The position numbers and the translations under genes were made by a program. A DNA stretch of 64,000 nucleotides from Bremerella sp. TYQ1. GTDB taxonomy: Bacteria; Planctomycetota; Planctomycetia; Pirellulales; Pirellulaceae. Each line of letters opens with the position of its first letter. Position 1 is the stretch's first letter. The stretch spans positions 6,407,001 to 6,471,000 of the forward strand of contig NZ_CP083740.1 in NCBI RefSeq assembly GCF_020150455.1. The letters run 5' to 3'. Shown in pieces: positions 51,819 through 60,456 of the stretch. The notes beneath the pieces were generated by a model. The model saw nothing but the letters and a program-made list of their open reading frames with translations. It was not told the origin of the DNA and did not search any database.

Positions 51819-52760
51819 TTAGCTACGGCCCACGCGGTTGAGGACTGTGGCGAGCGTTTCACGAAGGACCGTTCCGCTGCGACGAAGTGCCTGAATCTCT
51901 TTGGGCCAAAGGTCAAGTTGGTACGTCGACTCGACACCATTCTTGCCAACCACGGTAGGTACGCTCAACGCGACGTCACGAATGTCGTAGCAACCGTTTT
52001 GAATGCTTGAGATCGGCAGAATCTGATGGCTGTCGAGAGCAATCGCATCGATAACGTCGCGAATTGCAATCCCGACGGCGAAACCTGCGCCACCCTTCTT
52101 TTTGATCACTTCTGCCCCGGAGCCCTTGGTTCGCGTAAACAGTTCGTTTGCTGCGTTGGGATTCCAGCCGGGGAATTTCTCGAGCGGCAAGCCATTGACC
52201 GAAGCAGATGACCAGATCGGCACCATACTGTCGCCATGTTCGCCCAAGATCAATGCTTTGACTTGAGTCGGTGGCAATTGGCAATGTTCGGCGATTAAAG
52301 CTCGGAAGCGAATCGTATCGAGTTGTGTACCTAGACCGATCACTCGATTGTTAGGTAGGTCGAGTCGAGTCGATGCCAGGTAGGTGAGAATATCAACCGG
52401 ATTCGAGACGACGAATACGGTCGCGTCTTTCTTATAGCCGACCTTCTTAATCGATTCGAGGATCGTCAGGAACAAATCGACGTTACGATTGATCAAATCC
52501 AATCGACTTTCATCTGGCTTACGTCGCAGTCCAGCCGTGATGCAGATCAGATCTGAATCAGGGATATGTTCGTAGCTTCCGCTCGAAATGATTTGATCGG
52601 CCGTGCTTGGTCCACCGTGAAGTAAATCGAGCGCCTGGCCTCCGGCCAAGTCGGCGTTGACATCGAGCAACGCGATTTCGCGAACGATGCCACTGCACTG
52701 CAGAGCGAATGCGGCACACGATCCGACCAAACCGCCACCACCAATGATGCTTACTTTCAT
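51819..52760 (-). CDS. Lactate/malate dehydrogenase of the BMC operon
   Basis: A 313-residue NAD-dependent L-2-hydroxyacid dehydrogenase. The NAD-binding start is KVSIIGGGGLVGSCAA, then ALLDVN; VSNPVDILTY and GEHGDSMVPIWS with the catalytic His follow. The substrate-loop motif LRRKPDESRLDL has Arg at the classic position 102, the residue found in malate dehydrogenases rather than the Gln of lactate dehydrogenases. In the planctomycete BMC it is proposed to recycle NAD. No encapsulation peptide is evident. It is the last gene of the operon; ATG 52760 is chosen over TTG 52766. Confidence 0.92.
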   Translation of the reverse strand: MKVSIIGGGGLVGSCAAFALQCSGIVREIALLDVNADLAGGQALDLLHGGPSTADQIISSGSYEHIPDSDLICITAGLRRKPDESRLDLINRNVDLFLTILESIKKVGYKKDATVFVVSNPVDILTYLASTRLDLPNNRVIGLGTQLDTIRFRALIAEHCQLPPTQVKALILGEHGDSMVPIWSSASVNGLPLEKFPGWNPNAANELFTRTKGSGAEVIKKKGGAGFAVGIAIRDVIDAIALDSHQILPISSIQNGCYDIRDVALSVPTVVGKNGVESTYQLDLWPKEIQALRRSGTVLRETLATVLNRVGRS

Positions 52761-52794
52761 GGTCAATTCTTTCGCTGATTGGGGTAGTGTAGGT

Positions 52795-53667
52795 TTATCG
52801 CTGCTTCGACAATTCGGCGACGACGCGTTGGGTAATCATCTGGATCAACGCTTCCTGGTCTGATGAACCGGAGGTCGTCGCAGCCGCTGGCTTCTTCGCG
52901 TTAGGCCCCATTGGCTCTGGAGCACCGAATGCACGGCGCTGAACTTGCGAGTCTTCCCAGCTATCGCGGAAGATATCATTCGCACAGATATCGCAGTCTT
53001 TGTACTCTTCAGTGTTGCGCGGATCTTTCCAGCCCCACTTGTCCTTCAGGTCAAGCAGTTCACGCGACTTCTTTTCATTGAGGAATTCGACGTGACCGAG
53101 CTGTTTGGCCAGGATCAACATGCGGCAGTAGGCATCGAGAATTTCGGTCCACCAATAAGCACGTTCAACCGTTTCGCCGTAGCTGACCGTTCCATGGTTG
53201 GCCAGAAGAATCACGTTGGTGCGATCGACAAATGGGATAATCGTATCTGCGAACGATTGACCACCAGGCGTTTCGTACTTGGTGATCGGCACATCGCCCA
53301 GAAAGACTTCCACTTCCGGCAAAATGCACTGCGGAATTGGTTCGCGGGCAATTGCGAATGCCGTCGCGTGAGGCGGATGGCAATGCACGACACTCTTGAC
53401 GTCCTGACGCTGCTTGTAGATTTCCAAGTGCAGCAGGGCCTCGCTCGATCGTGGTTTGCTACCAGCGATTTGCTTGCCGGTCATGTCGATCGTGGCAATG
53501 TCTTCTGGCTTCAGAAAACCTTTGCAGTGCATCGTTGGCGTGCAAAGGACTTCGTTGTCGCTCACACGGACGGTGATGTTACCATCGTTCGCAGCGGCGA
53601 AGCCTTTGTTATAGATTCGCCGTCCAATGTCACACATATCTTGTTTGATCTTGTGAACGTTCGTCAT
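52795..53667 (-). CDS. Class II aldolase with C-terminal encapsulation peptide
   Basis: A 290-residue class II (Zn-dependent) aldolase of the fuculose/rhamnulose-1-phosphate type. Metal ligands are in SVVHCHPPHATAFAI (H-C-H) and LLANHGTVSYG. The N-terminus reads GFAAANDGNITVRVSDNEVL, typical of the family. After a flexible KKPAAATTSGSSDQ linker the last 18 residues (EALIQMITQRVVAELSKQ) form an amphipathic helix, a probable signal for packing into the BMC. It would cleave fuculose-1-P or rhamnulose-1-P to dihydroxyacetone phosphate and lactaldehyde. It lies between a BMC-P gene and the dehydrogenase gene. Confidence 0.94.
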   Translation of the reverse strand: MTNVHKIKQDMCDIGRRIYNKGFAAANDGNITVRVSDNEVLCTPTMHCKGFLKPEDIATIDMTGKQIAGSKPRSSEALLHLEIYKQRQDVKSVVHCHPPHATAFAIAREPIPQCILPEVEVFLGDVPITKYETPGGQSFADTIIPFVDRTNVILLANHGTVSYGETVERAYWWTEILDAYCRMLILAKQLGHVEFLNEKKSRELLDLKDKWGWKDPRNTEEYKDCDICANDIFRDSWEDSQVQRRAFGAPEPMGPNAKKPAAATTSGSSDQEALIQMITQRVVAELSKQR

Positions 53668-53724: not shown

Positions 53725-54021
53725 TTAGGACGTGTGGCGATAACGAATATCAACCGTGTCCAAAATGGCCGCGTTGTAGGCATCGACAGGCTTCATATTG
53801 GGATAAAACGGCTGAGCCGCTTCACCCCCTTCGCTTAACGCGATGTAGTTGTCTTGCCCTGCTCCCAGTTCGTCATACACAACCAGAAGGTCATCCAGCG
53901 GAGTGGTTTCGTTATCGATATCGCTCAACATCATGGGTACGGCCAACTTCAGCACGGCCCCTTGAAATTCGGAGACCGAACGGCTGAGAGTGACTTTTCC
54001 GATGACTTTGGCGATACGCAT
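53725..54021 (-). CDS. BMC-P (EutN/CcmL) pentameric shell protein, copy 1
   Basis: A 98-residue pentamer-forming shell vertex protein. It begins MRIAKVIGKVTLSRSVSEFQ and has GAVLKLAVPMML, VVYDELGAGQDNYIALSEGG and the closing AAILDTVDI. The pentamers cap the corners of the BMC shell. It is 11 bases after the RpiB-like gene and 57 bases before the aldolase gene. It is the most divergent of the three BMC-P proteins in the window. Confidence 0.95.
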   Translation of the reverse strand: MRIAKVIGKVTLSRSVSEFQGAVLKLAVPMMLSDIDNETTPLDDLLVVYDELGAGQDNYIALSEGGEAAQPFYPNMKPVDAYNAAILDTVDIRYRHTS

Positions 54022-54031
54022 GAGTTGTCCG

Positions 54032-54691
54032 TTACTTCATCCAGTTAGGGCCGGCGCTGCCGCGAAGGTTCCAGGCCGCCGAAAGGAATCGTGGTACTTC
54101 CGAGTCCTGCCACTGGCTTGGTTGGCAAACAATTAGGTTCGCCCCTAAGGTTTTCGCGGCTGATTGCCAGTCGTGACTTCCGCACGCAACCATCGCGCGA
54201 ACGCCACTTTGTCGATTCGCGGCTGCAACAGCGACTTCTGGCTGATCCGAAAGGACGACTACCATCTGTTCCGTCTTGGCAACGTTTACGGCACGTCCGA
54301 CCGCTTGTTGCAGGCTGCCGATTTGTTCAACGCGTTGGACCGACTTCCAAGCTGCCGAAGCAGAAATCTTGGTGGCATCGATCACCACTGGCGAATTGTC
54401 TTGCCGGCAGTCATTCGCGGCATCGACTTTCCGAAGCTCGATCCCGCGTTGTTTTAGTTCGTCTTTCACTGCCGGAGTAACAACCGCTTTGGCTGGCACA
54501 CACAGCGTTGTGGTCGACTCCGTCAGCTTCTGCTTCAGCGTTTCAACGGTCACCAGCTTCTCGCTCAGACGAAGTTCGCCTGTAGAAGAAGTTGGTTTCA
54601 CGTTGGTCGAAGCAGCACCATCCGTCATGAGTCGTTGGACGACCATGCGGACGATGCGTTCGATATCTTGACTGCTGAAGTTGGACTGCAC
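54032..54691 (-). CDS. BMC-associated protein with RpiB-like C-terminus and N-terminal encapsulation-type helix
   Basis: A 219-residue protein of no established function, seen in the BMC operon. The first 21 residues (SSQDIERIVRMVVQRLM) form an amphipathic helix like the BMC encapsulation peptide. A middle segment, VPAKAVVTPAVKDELKQRGI, resembles the TPxAxxxLxxRGIE segment seen in BMC-linked EutT/EutQ-like proteins. The C-terminal half (EVAVAAANRQSGVRAMVACG, then SAAKTLGANLIVC) resembles the active-site end of RpiB (AANKxxGIRAA and NDANVL), but the RpiB catalytic Cys is not visible. It could be an isomerase-like or structural lumen protein. It lies between two BMC-P genes. Confidence 0.75.
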   Translation of the reverse strand: MQSNFSSQDIERIVRMVVQRLMTDGAASTNVKPTSSTGELRLSEKLVTVETLKQKLTESTTTLCVPAKAVVTPAVKDELKQRGIELRKVDAANDCRQDNSPVVIDATKISASAAWKSVQRVEQIGSLQQAVGRAVNVAKTEQMVVVLSDQPEVAVAAANRQSGVRAMVACGSHDWQSAAKTLGANLIVCQPSQWQDSEVPRFLSAAWNLRGSAGPNWMK

Positions 54692-54693
54692 GT

Positions 54694-54954
54694 TTATTCG
54701 TCAACAATTCCGATCACCGTCCAACGGACCGGTGTTCGGGGGTAGTTCAATAGTTCGGAAGTTGATTTGCCATCGCTCGTGATCATCACCAGGTCTCCAG
54801 GACCTGCGTTGACGGCATCGACTGCCAACAGCGGAAAGCCATCGGGCGTGGTGCCATCGACTTGCATCGGCTGGACGACCAATAGTTTCCAGCCCTGCAT
54901 CGACACGTGTCGAACCGTACTGGTGGCCGTTCCGACCACGCGTGCCGCTTGCAT
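54694..54954 (-). CDS. BMC-P (EutN/CcmL) pentameric shell protein, copy 2
   Basis: An 86-residue shell vertex protein starting MQAARVVGTATSTVRHVSMQ, with LLVVQPMQVDG, LLAVDAVNAGPGDLVMITSD and the last strand VRWTVIGIVDE. The ATG at 54954 is chosen because 55002 would add an unlikely leader overlapping the aldehyde dehydrogenase gene. It is seven bases after that gene and two bases before the next, so the three are tightly coupled. Confidence 0.95.
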   Translation of the reverse strand: MQAARVVGTATSTVRHVSMQGWKLLVVQPMQVDGTTPDGFPLLAVDAVNAGPGDLVMITSDGKSTSELLNYPRTPVRWTVIGIVDE

Positions 54955-54961
54955 GGAAGGA

Positions 54962-56401
54962 TTAACCTTTCGCCGGGTGGCCAAGGATGCACAAATCGTC
55001 AATCAGCGAACAACGTCGTTCCCGCGTAAAAGTAAGCGGAGTGGTGACGCCTTCGCCGGTCGGGGTGGCGATCGAGAACGAAATGTAACCTTCGCCTCCA
55101 ACGCCGAGTGCCGAAGCACAAGGACCATTTTTGACGAACAACGTCGTGTCCATCACGCGGCCCATCTTGGTCATGTTGCGTACGTTGTTGCTGTGAATGA
55201 TGGCCGTGTGACGGAAGCCATGTTCGTAGTACTTCGCCTTTTCGATCGCTTCGTCCACGTCGTGACAACGAACGAAAGGAATGAACGGCATCATTTGTTC
55301 GACAGGGACAAACGGGTTGTGTTCGTCCGTTTCGCCAAACACCAGTTCAACGTCTTGCGAAATGTTTTTGCCAGCAGCACGAGCGAGGACGGCGGCATCT
55401 TGGCCGATAAATTCCTTCGCGGCGACCTTCTTCTTTTTGCCAGGGTCGCCATATTCGGCGATGGCAACGGAAGTCAGCCGGTCGATTTCGCTGCTGTTCA
55501 AGCGAGCTGCACCAGCTCGTTCCATGGCTCGCATCATGTCGTCGAACACAGAATTGACAACGAAGACTTCCTTTTCGGCGATGCAAAGCAAGTTGTTGTC
55601 GTAAGCACCCCCTTGAATGATGCAACGCGCTGCACGATCCAAATCAGCCGTTTCATCGACGACCACGGGTGGATTGCCTGGTCCGGCGACGACCGCTTTT
55701 TTACCGCTGTTAAGCGCTGCTCGGGCAACTGCTGGACCACCGGTGACGCAGATCATTGCGACGTCACGATGATGGAAGATCAGATCAGCTGATTCGAGGG
55801 TTGGTTCGGCGACGACGCAAATCAGGTTGTCGATGCCTAGGTCATCGTAGATCGCTTTGTTGAAGCGACGAACCCCTTCGGCGGCGACCTTCTTACCGCT
55901 TGGATGCGGATTGACGACCAGCGTGTTACCGCCGGCAATCATGTTCACGGCGTTTCCGGTGATCGTTGGTAGCGAGTGTGTCACAGGCGTTATACAGCCG
56001 ATCACACCAAAAGGTGCATGCTCGATTACTGCCAAGCCGTGGTCGCCACTGAACACTTCGCTCCGCAGAAATTCAACGCCTGGCGTTTTTCGGCCAAGCA
56101 ATTCCAGCTTCTCGATCTTATGTTCGAGACGGCCAATCTTGGTCTCGTTCATTTCCATCGTGCCGAGTTCCACCTTTTGGTCGATGGAAATACGACGGAT
56201 GTGATCGATGATTCGCTTCCGGTCTTCGATCGTGCGTTCTGAGAGTTTCTCGAACGCTTCACGAGCGGCTCGAACTGCTTCGTCGGCACAGTCGAAGATG
56301 CCGTAGCGACCACTGAAGCCGGACGATACCGGCGGTGCTTGGCCAACTTCGGCCAAGACCTGGGCCACCACATTGCGAATGATGGATTCGTCAAATTGCA
56401 T
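54962..56401 (-). CDS. CoA-acylating aldehyde dehydrogenase (PduP-like) with N-terminal encapsulation peptide
   Basis: A 479-residue aldehyde dehydrogenase of the BMC type. Residues 1-20 ([19 protein letters not shown]) form an amphipathic encapsulation helix, followed by a linker. The fold includes [39 protein letters not shown] and the catalytic Cys in [13 protein letters not shown]. It would oxidise lactaldehyde to lactyl-CoA with NAD and CoA, by analogy with PduP and the planctomycete BMC. It lies between two BMC-P genes. Confidence 0.95.
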
Positions 56402-56443: not shown

Positions 56444-56890
56444 CTAGCCTTCAGATTCGTTCTCTTTCGGTTCGTCCTGAGCAGGTGGCGGTTCCGGCTT
56501 GGGCTGTGGCTTTGGCTCTGCCTTGGGGGGCGGAGTGGCTTTGGCCTTGGCGGGTGCCTTTGGTTCTGGCTCGTCAGTCTCTTCGTCTCGATCGTAAACG
56601 CAGAAGCTCTCGATGTGAGCTCGGTCGACAATGCCAATCACAACACAGTCGATCGGAAGCGTTTTGGTTTCCGGGGTCAATCGGGCGCTTGAACCTTGGG
56701 TGATCAGCACGAAGTCGCCGACGCCACTGCCGAGCATGTCGACAGCCACGAACGTTCGCCCGGTGGTTACGAGCGACTGGCGATCTTTCGCTTCCAACCG
56801 ATACGGTTCGACGACCAACAATTTGTGGCCGACCATCGTGTCGACTTTCTGCGTCGATATGACCGAACCGGTCACTTTGGCGATAAACAT
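56444..56890 (-). CDS. BMC-P shell protein, copy 3, with long Pro/Lys/Glu-rich tail
   Basis: A 148-residue vertex protein. Residues 1-90 form the normal BMC-P domain (MFIAKVTGSVISTQKVDTM, LLVVEPYRLEAKDRQ, SGVGDFVLITQGSS, VVIGIVDRAHI). Residues about 100-148 are a low-complexity tail of Pro, Lys, Glu and Ala (for example KATPPPKAEPKPQPKPEPPP). Such a tail is unusual for a shell pentamer. It could face the cytoplasm or the lumen and act as a linker. ATG 56890 is one base after the ackA stop, indicating coupled translation. Confidence 0.93.
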   Translation of the reverse strand: MFIAKVTGSVISTQKVDTMVGHKLLVVEPYRLEAKDRQSLVTTGRTFVAVDMLGSGVGDFVLITQGSSARLTPETKTLPIDCVVIGIVDRAHIESFCVYDRDEETDEPEPKAPAKAKATPPPKAEPKPQPKPEPPPAQDEPKENESEG

Positions 56891-56891
56891 C

Positions 56892-58082
56892 TTAGGTCGA
56901 CTCCAGCAACTGCTTGGTCTGCCGAGCAACGATGATTTCTTCGTTGGTTGGAATAACCCACAGTTGCGTCTTGCTGTTTTCCGAATGGATCGAAGCCTCT
57001 CCTTTGGCGGAGATGTTCTTTTCTTCGTCCAGTTCGATTCCCAATTCTTGCAAGTTGGCACACAAGTCCTTGCGAAGCTCTTTGCCGTTCTCGCCAATAC
57101 CACCGGTAAAGACGATCGCATCGGCTCCGCCCAGTTCCACCAACATGCCGCCGAGATATCGACGAACTTCGCTGGCGTACATGTCTAAAGCCAACTTAGC
57201 ATCGGCATTGCCGTTGACTGCCGCTTCTTCCAGGTCTCGCATATCCCCACTGAGGCCGTTACTTAAGCCGAGCAGCCCACCATGATTCCCGATATACGCG
57301 AGAACTTCGGTAAGGGTTTTGCCAGTTCGTTCCATCAGCAGGGGCAGGGCATAGGGATCGAAATCCCCGACCCGATTGTTCTGCGGTAAGCCGGTTTGCG
57401 GGCTCATGCCCATGGTGACGGCAACGCTTTGGCGGTTTTTAATCGCACATAAGCTGCTGCTTCCACCTAGGTGGCACGAGATAACTCGCAAATCGTCGCG
57501 TCCCAACAGTTCGGCACTTCGCGTCGCGATGTACCGATGGCTCGCACCATGGAAACCCCACTTCTTAATCTGGAACTCGTCCGACCAAGCTTTGGGGATA
57601 CCGTAGTAACGATTCCGATCAGGAATCGTCTGATGAAAGCCTGTTTCAAAGGCGGCAACTAGCGGAATCTCCGGAAGTTGCTCAGAAAGTAATCGCATGG
57701 CGGCGATGTACGGCGGGTTATGCGCTGGCGCGACTTCGTTCATTTCTGCCATAGCGGAAAGGACATCGTCGTTTACACGCTGCACGCCGGAAACTCGTCC
57801 ACCGTGGACCGCTTTAAAGCCGATTGCCGAAACTTCGGCGGCGTCTTTGAGGCACCCATTTTCTGCATCGGTCAGTTGCGAAAGGCATTTGCGAACGGCC
57901 ACGGCATGATCTGGAACATGATCCGTGACGTCTTCCTTCCACTGGCCAATCTGAACGCTGCAGGAACTTTCTGGAGATCCGATTCGATCGATCCCACCTC
58001 GAGCCAGTTGCGTTTCGCTGTCCATGTCGAACAAGCGATACTTGAAGCTGGTCGATCCGAGATTTGCTACCAGAACTTTCAT
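56892..58082 (-). CDS. ackA: Acetate/short-chain acyl kinase of the BMC operon
   Basis: A 396-residue acetate-kinase family enzyme (ASKHA fold). It opens [20 protein letters not shown] and contains [49 protein letters not shown] and [13 protein letters not shown]. In the BMC pathway it would transfer phosphate from lactyl-, propionyl- or acetyl-phosphate to ADP. The short gap to the BMC-P gene (one base) and absence of an obvious encapsulation helix suggest it acts outside the compartment, which is an inference. Confidence 0.95.
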
Positions 58083-58140: not shown

Positions 58141-58410
58141 CTAGCTGAAGTAAACGTCGCTCAGGCCTTCAGCAGGACGTGGCAAAACGTGGCTACCGGC
58201 CAGTTCACCGACCTGTTGAGCTGCATTGGCACCAGCTTCAACGGCAGCACGAACGCTTCCGACGTCGCCACTGACAACCGTGGTGACCAGGCCACCGCCG
58301 ATGTTGACGCGTTTTACAATCTTGACGTTGGCGGCCTTCGCCATGGCATCGGTCGCTTCGACCAGGCCAACCAAACCCTTGGTTTCAATCAAACCAATTG
58401 CGTTTTGCAT
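58141..58410 (-). CDS. BMC-H hexameric shell protein, copy 1
   Basis: An 89-residue shell hexamer protein: [60 protein letters not shown] and SHVLPRPAEGL. All core BMC-domain positions are present, with the pore loop NIGGG. It tiles the BMC facets. It lies 41 bases after the other BMC-H gene, and the two are about half identical by eye. Confidence 0.97.
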   Translation of the reverse strand: MQNAIGLIETKGLVGLVEATDAMAKAANVKIVKRVNIGGGLVTTVVSGDVGSVRAAVEAGANAAQQVGELAGSHVLPRPAEGLSDVYFS

Positions 58411-58451: not shown

Positions 58452-58757
58452 CTACTCGGAGGTGTAAACCTTCTTAACCGGTGGAGGAAGGACGATACCG
58501 ATGTCTTCGTGTGGTCGTGGAATGACCTGAACGCTGACAACTTCGCCCAAACGACCAGCGGCCGCGGCACCAGCATCGGTGGCAGCCTTCACCGCGGCGA
58601 CGTCGCCGGTGATGAAAGCGGAAACCAAACCGCTGCCAACTTTGTCCCAACCAACGAACGTCACGTTGGCTGCCTTCAACATTGCGTCGGTGGCTTCCAC
58701 CAAGGTCACAAAGCCCTTGGTTTCAATCATGCCCAACGCTTCCATTACTTTCGCCAT
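58452..58757 (-). CDS. BMC-H hexameric shell protein, copy 2
   Basis: A 101-residue hexamer protein: [60 protein letters not shown] and [10 protein letters not shown], with a short C-terminal extension ([14 protein letters not shown]). The pore loop is KVGSG. Together with the other BMC-H it forms the shell facets; no BMC-T gene is present in the window. It is preceded by a 161-base gap after pduL. Confidence 0.97.
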
Positions 58758-58918: not shown

Positions 58919-59629
58919 CTAATGTTTTGTCTTGCAGCCGCACGGCTCTTTCTTGAGCAGTTCGATTTCCGTCGCTGCGTCCAAGTTGCAGGCGTTGCCT
59001 TCGTCGGTATCAATGTGGACTTCCAGCTTGCTGACTTCGTCGGCTCGCACGAGCAAGTCTTCAAACGTGGTCGTGCAGCCGAGGGACGTGATCCGCAGGT
59101 TCATGCGGTCGCCATTCTGCACGCCGTAAAATTCGGCGTCGCGATTGTTCATGTGGACATGACGTTCGGCTCGGATGACACCTTGATCCAGTTGAACCGC
59201 ACCCTTGGGGCCGACGAGCACACAACCAGGCGTACCGTCAATCTTGCCGGAAGCACGAACGGGCGCTTCAATGCCGAGCGAAATGGCATCGGTGAAAGCC
59301 AGCTCGACTTGGCTGTAGTCTCGTGTCGGACCGAGCACGCGAACTTTCTCGAGCATCCGTCGGCGGGGGCCCACGACCATGACAGTCTCTTCGGCGGCGT
59401 AGAAGCCGTCCTGATAGAGGTCTTTCATGGGAGTTAGTACATGTCCAGGGCCAAACAACGTTTCGACGTGAGCATCAGTCAAGTGAATGTGCCGTGCCGA
59501 AATGCTGACGACCAACTTCGGGGCAGCCGGCGCGACAGGAGCTTGAACCGGAGCACCATTTTGCGAAAGGACGATCTGGCGAACGATCCGTTCGATGGTG
59601 GCATGATCGAGATTCAGCGAGGAACTCAT
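58919..59629 (-). CDS. pduL: Phosphate propanoyl/lactoyl-transferase PduL with N-terminal encapsulation peptide
   Basis: A 236-residue PduL. Residues about 4-22 ([19 protein letters not shown]) form an amphipathic encapsulation helix. The two metal-site segments are [17 protein letters not shown] and [16 protein letters not shown], and the fold includes [20 protein letters not shown]. PduL exchanges CoA on acyl-CoA for phosphate, here probably lactyl-CoA to lactyl-phosphate inside the BMC. It lies 23 bases after deoR and is the first enzyme of the operon. Confidence 0.96.
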
Positions 59630-59652: not shown

Positions 59653-60456
59653 TTAGCTTACTTTGTGGGAAATTGGGCGATCAATGATCGCCATCTCAGC
59701 AGGAGCGACGATCAAATCGACTCCCGCGTTTTGCACGCGTGATTGCCAGGCCTCCGAAATCTCGTGATCGACCACGAGTTTGTCGACTTCGGAAAGCTCA
59801 CACATCTGGGCGAGGCTTTGGCGTCCAAACTTGGTGCTGTCGGCAACGATGATTACTTCACCGCCAGCTTTCATCATGGCTCGTTCTGTCTCAACGAGCA
59901 GGAGGTTGCTGTTGTACAGTCCTTGCTCGGTAATTCCCGCGACACTCAGCACAGCCCTACGAGCACTTAGCCGCGAGATCATCTCGTTGGCATAAGGGCC
60001 CAGCGAAACGCCTGTAGCGTTATGAACGTACCCGCCGAGTAAGATCAATTCCGTCGTTGGGCTGGCCATGAACAAGTTGGCCACCGGCAACGAATTGGTC
60101 ACAATCTGCAGGGTTCGCCCGACAAGCATCTGGGCTAATTCATAGGTGGTGCTACCGCCGTCGAGAATGACCGTGTCGCCATCTTCGATCAGCTGAGCCG
60201 CGGCCTTCGCGATCTGCCGCTTCTTGCTCCACTGCATTTCGTGGCGAAGTTCAAAGTGGGGCAGGTTCGGAGAAGGACCGGTATAAAACACGCCCCCATG
60301 CGTCCTGCGAGCCGTCCCTGCTTCTTCCAGCAGTTCCACGTCGCGGCGAACAGTCGATTCCGAGACTTCCAATTCCTGAGCAAGTTCCGGCAGCGAGGCA
60401 AAGCCTCGGGACCGAACCAGGTCGAGAAGTCGCGTTCGTCGGGCGTCCGCTTGCAT
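59653..60456 (-). CDS. DeoR-family transcriptional regulator of the BMC operon
   Basis: A 267-residue DeoR regulator. The N-terminal winged helix-turn-helix is [20 protein letters not shown] followed by RRTHGG. The C-terminal sugar-phosphate-sensing domain has [46 protein letters not shown] and VVDHEISE. DeoR repressors of this type respond to phosphorylated sugars such as fuculose-1-P or rhamnulose-1-P. It heads the operon and is preceded by a promoter with an overlapping palindrome (60492-60546), suggesting autoregulation. Confidence 0.94.

Follow-up and report, generated by a model that had tools for sequence, protein, structure and literature searches.

A constrained gene between BMC-P genes

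The window, as we call the 64,000-nucleotide stretch of the Bremerella sp. TYQ1 genome analysed here, holds a complete PVM-type microcompartment locus, for an organelle that degrades fucose, of the kind described in PMC4207490. The locus runs from a DeoR-family regulator through PduL, two BMC-H proteins, acetate kinase, a BMC-P protein, an aldehyde dehydrogenase and a second BMC-P protein to the gene under study, which is followed by another BMC-P gene, a class II aldolase and a lactate dehydrogenase-like gene (Table 1). As the original prediction for this DNA had stated, gaps of 2 bases (54692–54693) and 10 bases (54022–54031) separate the gene from its flanking BMC-P genes, both of which match PF03319, and the three protein stretches that were quoted then, SSQDIERIVRMVVQRLM, VTPAVKDELKQRGIEL and AANRQSGVRAMVAC, are all found in the translated open reading frame at 54032–54691. 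Counting matches at E ≤ 0.001, the shell set of the genome consists of two BMC-H and three BMC-P proteins, with no two-domain BMC-T found. The BMC-P protein encoded at 56444–56890 carries a long Pro/Lys/Glu-rich C-terminal tail, seemingly unusual for a vertex pentamer.

Table 1. Features of the gene and of the PVM locus around it, in window coordinates
Feature	Position	Strand	Evidence or remark
Gene, candidate PVM shell–cargo linker	54032..54691	-	219 aa, GTG start at 54689-54691
N-terminal encapsulation-type amphipathic helix (predicted), residues 7-26	54614..54673	-	AF2, hydrophobic moment
Variable low-confidence linker, residues 27-37	54581..54613	-	pLDDT <50 at 29-34; entropy 3.31 bits; pN/pS 0.63
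Putative docking module, residues 38-90	54422..54580	-	Homologous to EutQ/EutT N-termini, TIGR02536 and (weaker) PduM C-termini
RpiB-fold domain (predicted), residues 97-219, without catalytic residues	54035..54403	-	
S148-D-Q-P151, replacing RpiB Cys-Gly-Thr-Gly catalytic loop	54239..54250	-	Column counts
N159-R160, retained RpiB core motif	54212..54217	-	N 109/109, R 107/109 listed members
Upstream BMC-P gene (start at internal ATG)	54694..54954	-	PF03319, E 3.5e-24
Downstream BMC-P gene	53725..54021	-	PF03319, E 8.5e-16
Third BMC-P gene (start at ATG before domain)	56444..56890	-	PF03319, E 1.7e-26
CoA-acylating aldehyde dehydrogenase	54962..56401	-	NF011927, E 1.7e-187
Class II aldolase, PVM signature enzyme	52795..53667	-	PF00596, E 7.9e-48
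Lactate/malate dehydrogenase-like	51819..52766	-	PF00056 and PF02866
Acetate kinase	56892..58082	-	PF00871, E 7.7e-104
BMC-H shell protein	58141..58410	-	PF00936
BMC-H shell protein	58452..58757	-	PF00936
PduL phosphotransacylase	58919..59629	-	PF06130, E 4e-72
DeoR-family regulator	59653..60456	-	PF00455 and PF08220

The gene is one that we take to be pvmL, a name reached through the list of PVM genes, with the assignment of positions in that list partly our own assumption. The list itself reads pvmABDEGHIJKLMNO (PMC11958385). Relatives of the gene carry the annotation 'hypothetical', and among named public proteins those of Bremerella come closest (P0002, 72%; P0003, 68%). The public cluster of the window protein, P0001, is 204 aa long and begins at an internal Met, so that part of the N-terminal helix is missing from it; the GTG start used here is common to all five Bremerella-like orthologues, own genome counted. 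Across these five genomes the whole gene has a pN/pS of 0.30, which marks it as a real coding gene under constraint. The constraint is uneven, with values of 0.20 for the core, 0.23 for the helix, 0.24 for the middle module, 0.45 for the first half of the RpiB domain and 0.63 for the linker. Column entropy, taken over six regions, is likewise highest in the linker (3.31 bits), against 2.92 in the N-terminal RpiB half and 1.74 in the module.

A single-sequence search with the window protein gave no significant Pfam or NCBIfam match, and its resemblances to other proteins therefore required family-level tests. For these we used a set of 109 members including the window protein, from the 120 listed of 509 relatives; the corresponding figure for another family set, A1, is 17 of 21, the window protein counted in. 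We are close to certain of the resulting three-part anatomy, a predicted helix, a module and a modelled RpiB fold, and treat it as firm.

Position across genomes

In 73 of 76 named-genome loci (77 before removal of the Clostridia EutQ locus, L104), and in all 66 with 1 kb or more to either side, a BMC-P match lies within 900 bases of the gene in both directions; the three exceptions are two contig ends and L077, which has no BMC-P gene downstream. A second locus set gives BMC-P flanks in 28 of 30 loci including the window's own, hence in 27 of 29 others. Three BMC-P genes are present in 39 of 40 class-level genomes (the window's own among them), and the gene accompanies them in 38; the single genome without BMC-P is also without it. 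Only these 40 genomes are quoted because a broader count, 168 of 392 genomes, includes plain RpiB cross-hits. The PVM loci covered are those outside Verrucomicrobia.

Departures from this pattern are few. In two loci of one genus (L022 and L025) the gene is not beside a BMC-P gene, yet helix, module and core motif are kept. Genome G377 has a PVM locus (L141) with PduL, BMC-H, acetate kinase, three BMC-P genes, aldehyde dehydrogenase, aldolase and lactate dehydrogenase, together with an extra BMC-H gene, that is without the gene, and a module search of this genome gave no match at E ≤ 1; the gene can thus be lost. G377 may use another linker. Five further loci with BMC-P genes (L145, L146 and L149–L151), which belong to another BMC type or have none assigned, hold no such gene between them.

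A predicted helix and a variable linker

AF2 places a helix at residues 7–26, with a mean pLDDT of 86 across residues 11–20, and its hydrophobic moment exceeds that of 97% of shuffles. An N-terminal helix had been proposed from the outset, and as a prediction it stands; its supposed likeness to the helices of PduL and the aldehyde dehydrogenase is one of pattern, and the hydrophobic-moment test singled out only the helix of the window protein. The C-terminus of the aldolase at 52795–53667 shows a helix pattern of encapsulation-like type (QEALIQMITQRVVAELSKQR). Between the helix and the module lies the linker, the most variable part of the protein.

A module shared with EutQ and EutT

The middle of the protein, described earlier as a EutT/EutQ-like segment, proves to be a true homologue of the N-termini of EutQ and EutT in profile searches made in both directions; proteins that trained a model are not counted among its finds. 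In the forward direction, a profile built only from PVM modules (residues 36–92) was run against 1,360 ORFs from six eut, pdu or cut regions and one mostly unrelated E. coli region. It ranked first a Clostridia EutQ (E 6.8e-11, a score flattered by the choice of that locus, L104, which was fetched for its likeness to the family of the window protein), followed by the EutT that goes with it (3.6e-5), EutT of Cetobacterium (5.5e-4), EutQ of Enterococcus (0.0012) and an 88-residue Cetobacterium protein (0.0022), with the best of 1,360 shuffled ORFs at 0.96. Scores were weaker for E. coli EutT (0.033) and the Cetobacterium TIGR02536 protein (0.12), and at noise level for PduM of Kosakonia (0.88) and E. 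coli (2.7) and for E. coli EutQ (7.3). Among 124 ORFs of two later loci, the same model found the held-out EutT of Listeria (2.1e-7) and the held-out TIGR02536 proteins of Listeria (8.3e-6) and C. difficile (7.4e-6).

In the reverse direction, a model of nine non-planctomycete modules, from EutQ, EutT, TIGR02536 and similar proteins, matched the window protein at E 2e-11, 102 of the 109 listed members at E < 0.01 and all 109 at E < 1, scores again flattered by L104. The way in which L104 had been chosen led us to rerun this test without it. Eleven modules, with neither the Clostridia locus nor any PVM sequence, matched the window protein at 1.4e-7 (best shuffled score, 0.75), 68 of 109 listed members at E < 0.01 and 98 at E < 1, which leaves the conclusion as it was. 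Identity to the module of the window protein is 38% in a Clostridia EutQ and 15% in E. coli EutQ, where residues 1–48 are the stretch aligned as module. A profile that includes the window protein found a single copy of the module in this genome (3.9e-18, against 1.63 for the runner-up).

The same module ends the TIGR02536 proteins. A comparison of the PVM and TIGR02536 profiles with hhalign gave 79.4% and E 1.5e-5, and the curated TIGR02536 model matches EutQ, EutT and PVM proteins, including 16 of the 109 listed members, at its own C-terminal positions; the window protein itself scores 13.6 bits, far below the family cut-off of 152.6. For PduM the evidence is weaker and points the same way. 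A module model made without PduM scored all 32 PduMs at 13.4–26.3 bits, and the highest of 1,920 shuffled decoys reached 5.1; the decoys are shuffles of related PduMs, so that the 32 are not independent. Another profile with no PduM inside, A6, recovered PduM from a Listeria record of 407 kb (E 0.01) and missed it in the Kosakonia record, these being the two pduM-holding records searched, and direct comparison of the PVM and PduM profiles is weak (hhalign 16%, E 0.0016). The window protein has no full-length match to the PduM families TIGR04493 and PF15953, two models that 4 and 5 of the 109 listed members match weakly.

Three further observations concern where the module turns up. First, in three eut loci whose EutQ is without the module, it is carried by the TIGR02536 protein beside eutN, and in Cetobacterium also by the 88-residue protein, which consists of module plus helix; the reading frames concerned are L115:7636-7902 and L115:6783-7379 in Cetobacterium, L154:3459-4031 and L155:3333-4058. 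Second, a reading frame at L159:1965-2882 (minus strand) has a stretch that begins as the module does (MKRLITEAELRK...); by eye it adjoins a two-domain BMC-like gene, and the BMC-P triplet of this genome lies beside an aldolase. Third, residues 6–92 of E. coli EutQ (L116:15132-15833) match the start of the NCBIfam EutA model (E 1.6e-9), and some EutA proteins may therefore carry the front end of EutQ.

What this region does has been worked out in other compartments. Salmonella EutQ is needed to join shell and cargo: without residues 9–41 (helices H1 and H2) it is found with the cargo and off the shell, and without residues 62–99 (H3 and H4) with the shell and off the cargo (PMC12487888). The EutQ N-terminus binds the packing helix of EutC with micromolar affinity through its H3/H4 side, and the shell partners measured for EutQ are the BMC-H and BMC-T proteins EutM and EutL (PMC12487888); once its first 100 residues are removed, EutQ fails to pull down EutM (PMC4827028). 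By homology, the middle segment of the window protein would thus correspond to the part of EutQ to which experiments in the literature assign shell binding. PduM helps to tie core to shell and packs cargo through residues 1–23 (PMC9132943, PMC12108088), and the account in PMC12108088 gives it no known sequence homology outside Pdu compartments. Gram-positive EutQ lacks the first helices, the assembly helices, and its mechanism is inferred to differ (PMC12487888). The module-bearing TIGR02536 proteins may answer the question that this source leaves open for Gram-positive Eut compartments.

An RpiB fold without its active site

Structure prediction and structural comparison give residues 97–219 the RpiB fold, bearing out the likeness first noticed in the C-terminal half. 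The Pfam family of this fold, PF02502 (LacAB_rpiB), is matched at E < 0.01 by 67 of the 109 listed members, the best at 2.5e-10, with the window protein not among them. Pfam gave no match to a cupin or to EutQ (PF06249) in the window protein, whose body is the RpiB fold instead.

In RpiB, Cys66/69 acts as the base, Thr71 and Gly70–74 assist in forming the intermediate and keeping it stable, and ring opening falls to His99/102 (PMC4783025). The active-site Cys and His had already been reported as not apparent in this one sequence, and their loss extends to the family: among the 109 listed members, the corresponding columns hold Cys once and His never. The Thr column (150) has Thr in a single listed member, and the [CG]G[TS]G.G loop, the DYP motif and the GRH..R motif occur in none of the 109. 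Other positions of the core are kept almost without exception, N159 and N185 in 109 of 109 listed members and R165 in 107, and there is a new loop, with P151 in 74, D190 in 72 and P191 in 103 of the 109. The domain is also shorter than in RpiB, at about 123 residues against chain ranges of up to about 142. Two ordinary RpiBs are encoded elsewhere in the genome, and the kept N, R and A residues occur in both.

The original prediction had left a choice between a dead isomerase used as a scaffold and a new lumen activity. The first is the better supported of the two, with scaffold function and lumen location as its conjectural parts: an isomerase without its catalytic residues probably holds the organelle together and does not catalyse.

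SPU-type counterparts

Among 20 distant planctomycete loci, 6 are PVM-type with dead domains, and 14 encode the module joined to a full-length RpiB. These 14 SPU-like proteins were picked by motif, but together they account for every non-PVM member among the 20. Their DHGG-type, DYPD, R.HN.AN and RH..R motifs are nearly complete, with DG[AV]G in place of CGTG. This replacement of Cys-Gly-Thr-Gly by Asp-Gly-x-Gly was seen in 18 of 18 BMC-type RpiBs of distant Planctomycetota (L117–L121, L126–L133, L136, L142–L144 and L148). A script detected a helix-like stretch before the module in 10 of the 14, all ten away from BMC-P genes; by eye one is also present in L130–L132, and there is none in L133.

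Eight loci, comprising 4 of the 14 and 4 further ones, have such a gene between BMC-P genes. Two SPU-like loci, of four that were extended, were scanned with Pfam; they hold the next BMC-P gene, a DeoC aldolase and also a nucleoside phosphorylase, and the two enzymes identify these loci as SPU-type, as defined in PMC8217296. Ten module–RpiB genes (L117–L121, L126–L129 and L136) have no BMC-P gene within the approximately 2 kb fetched, and BMC-P genes lie elsewhere in their genomes. On the simplest reading, the PVM protein descends from an SPU module–RpiB enzyme, or shares an ancestor with it, and has kept the structural part; the direction of descent is the conjectural element.

A candidate shell–cargo linker

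We consider it probable, on the combined analysis, that the window protein is the shell–cargo linker of the PVM microcompartment. Its N-terminal helix would pair with the helices that pack the aldehyde dehydrogenase, PduL and the aldolase and so attach the protein to the enzyme core, and the flexible linker would lead to the docking module, which would bind the inner face of the shell. With two BMC-H and three BMC-P proteins in the genome and BMC-T not found, the partner of the module would be BMC-H or BMC-P. The RpiB-fold body, no longer isomerising, most likely oligomerises, which would make the linker multivalent in the manner of the dimerising cupin of EutQ, and its descent from, or common ancestry with, the SPU enzyme would have been followed by retention for a structural role. 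Shell binding by the module, cargo binding by the helix, oligomerisation of the body and the direction of descent are the steps that we infer. Several observations count against this reading: the PVM locus of G377 does without the gene, in L022, L025 and L077 the gene stands away from BMC-P genes, the shell partners of EutQ were EutM and EutL whereas a BMC-T was not found in this genome, and EutT, an enzyme, also bears the module, which might therefore serve more generally in packing.

The closest parallel is EutQ, the linker of the ethanolamine compartment, which has the same module of about 45 residues, an encapsulation-type helical part and a flexible linker to the body domain. The order of parts differs, module–helix–cupin in EutQ and helix–module–RpiB in the window protein; the cargo-binding part of EutQ consists of two helices where one is predicted here, and its body is a cupin (PF06249) with reported acetate kinase activity. 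SPU-type RpiB (PF02502) shares the succession of module and RpiB fold and, in eight loci, the place between BMC-P genes; it has kept its motifs almost throughout, with Asp for the catalytic Cys, and none of these motifs survives in the PVM protein. PduM (PF15953) resembles the window protein in its N-terminal encapsulation helix, its module match and its position beside a BMC-P gene, but its module is C-terminal and modelled at low confidence, and its body is predicted to adopt another alpha/beta fold, for which the PDB offers no clear counterpart. TIGR02536 proteins, the Gram-positive type, share a helix-like N-terminal start; their module is C-terminal and their body has no RpiB match. Compared with canonical RpiB and LacAB, finally, the window protein lacks the catalytic Cys, Thr and His, DYP and RH..R, and carries an additional helix and module ahead of the fold.

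Four other readings of the protein deserve weighing. An unlikely but serious one is that it is a vertex-specific adaptor, its module docking to the BMC-P pentamer and nucleating core capture at the corners, or capping the shell, and not tying the core to the facets. The BMC-P flanks of all 66 testable named loci would fit this role, as would a genome in which no BMC-T was found. Gene neighbourhoods of other module proteins fit as well: in 3 of 3 loci TIGR02536 has a PduL-type phosphotransacylase gene on one side and EutN on the other, pduM adjoins a BMC-P gene in 3 of 3 (after pduL in two, with eutJ intervening in Listeria), and EutQ directly follows a BMC-P gene in the Enterococcus choline locus. 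However, the partners measured for the related EutQ region are of the BMC-H and BMC-T classes (EutM and EutL; PMC12487888), E. coli eutQ is not adjacent to eutN, and gene order can reflect expression level instead of contact.

Somewhat less probable again is a lumen enzyme with a new activity, acting on lactaldehyde, lactyl-phosphate or a sugar phosphate in a kept pocket whose catalytic loop has been swapped. Strong constraint on the core, with N159, N185 and R165 kept, and the new loop around P151, D190 and P191 argue for it, and the SPU counterparts demonstrate that the same plan can bear a near-intact active site. Yet the kept N, R and A are shared with the two ordinary RpiBs and may be structural, the domain is shortened, DYP and GRH..R are missing from all 109 listed members, the N-terminal half of the domain varies more than the other (entropy 2.92, pN/pS 0.45) and the PVM pathway is already supplied with its enzymes.

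We doubt more strongly that the protein is plain cargo or filler, packed by its helix and otherwise without shell contact, for example as an aggregation seed of the core condensate. Encapsulation helices alone can target cargo (PMC12108088) and drive condensation (PMC12339742), and EutT shows that the module is found on an enzyme as well. A plain cargo role would nonetheless leave unexplained both the conservation of the module (entropy 1.74, pN/pS 0.24) and the shell-associating role of the same region in EutQ. Hardly credible, lastly, is that the protein is an SPU-type RpiB in decay. It has lost its active site and diverges more quickly than the proteins next to it (comparing the window with four Bremerella-like loci, identity is 63–72% for the protein and 89–98% for the neighbours), and G377 has no copy, but the gene is under purifying selection that is weakest in the linker, and it is kept in 38 of 40 class-level genomes and even where it stands elsewhere (L022 and L025).

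Implications

In few microcompartments has the way in which enzymes are attached to the shell been worked out. Returning to the linker reading, we see an even balance for and against a broader proposal, in which one docking module would be a common shell-attachment part of metabolosomes, borne on different bodies: a cupin in EutQ, an adenosyltransferase in EutT, unrecognised folds in PduM and TIGR02536, a near-intact RpiB in SPU and a dead RpiB in PVM. In most cases an encapsulation-type helix would accompany the module, and a BMC-P gene would often lie next door. The window protein would then be the PVM version, with a former isomerase as linker body, and TIGR02536 the missing Gram-positive Eut linker. 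In the literature searched we found neither the reading of a pseudo-RpiB as linker nor a module common to PVM, SPU, EUT and PDU.

If the proposal is true, the C-terminus of PduM gains a testable role, and TIGR02536 would be the linker where Gram-positive EutQ is without its first helices. The module would offer a compact loading tag for designed compartments built of BMC-H and BMC-P only. The PVM protein would be an example of an enzyme turned structural part, and the PDU, EUT, SPU and PVM organelles would be linked by a single module.
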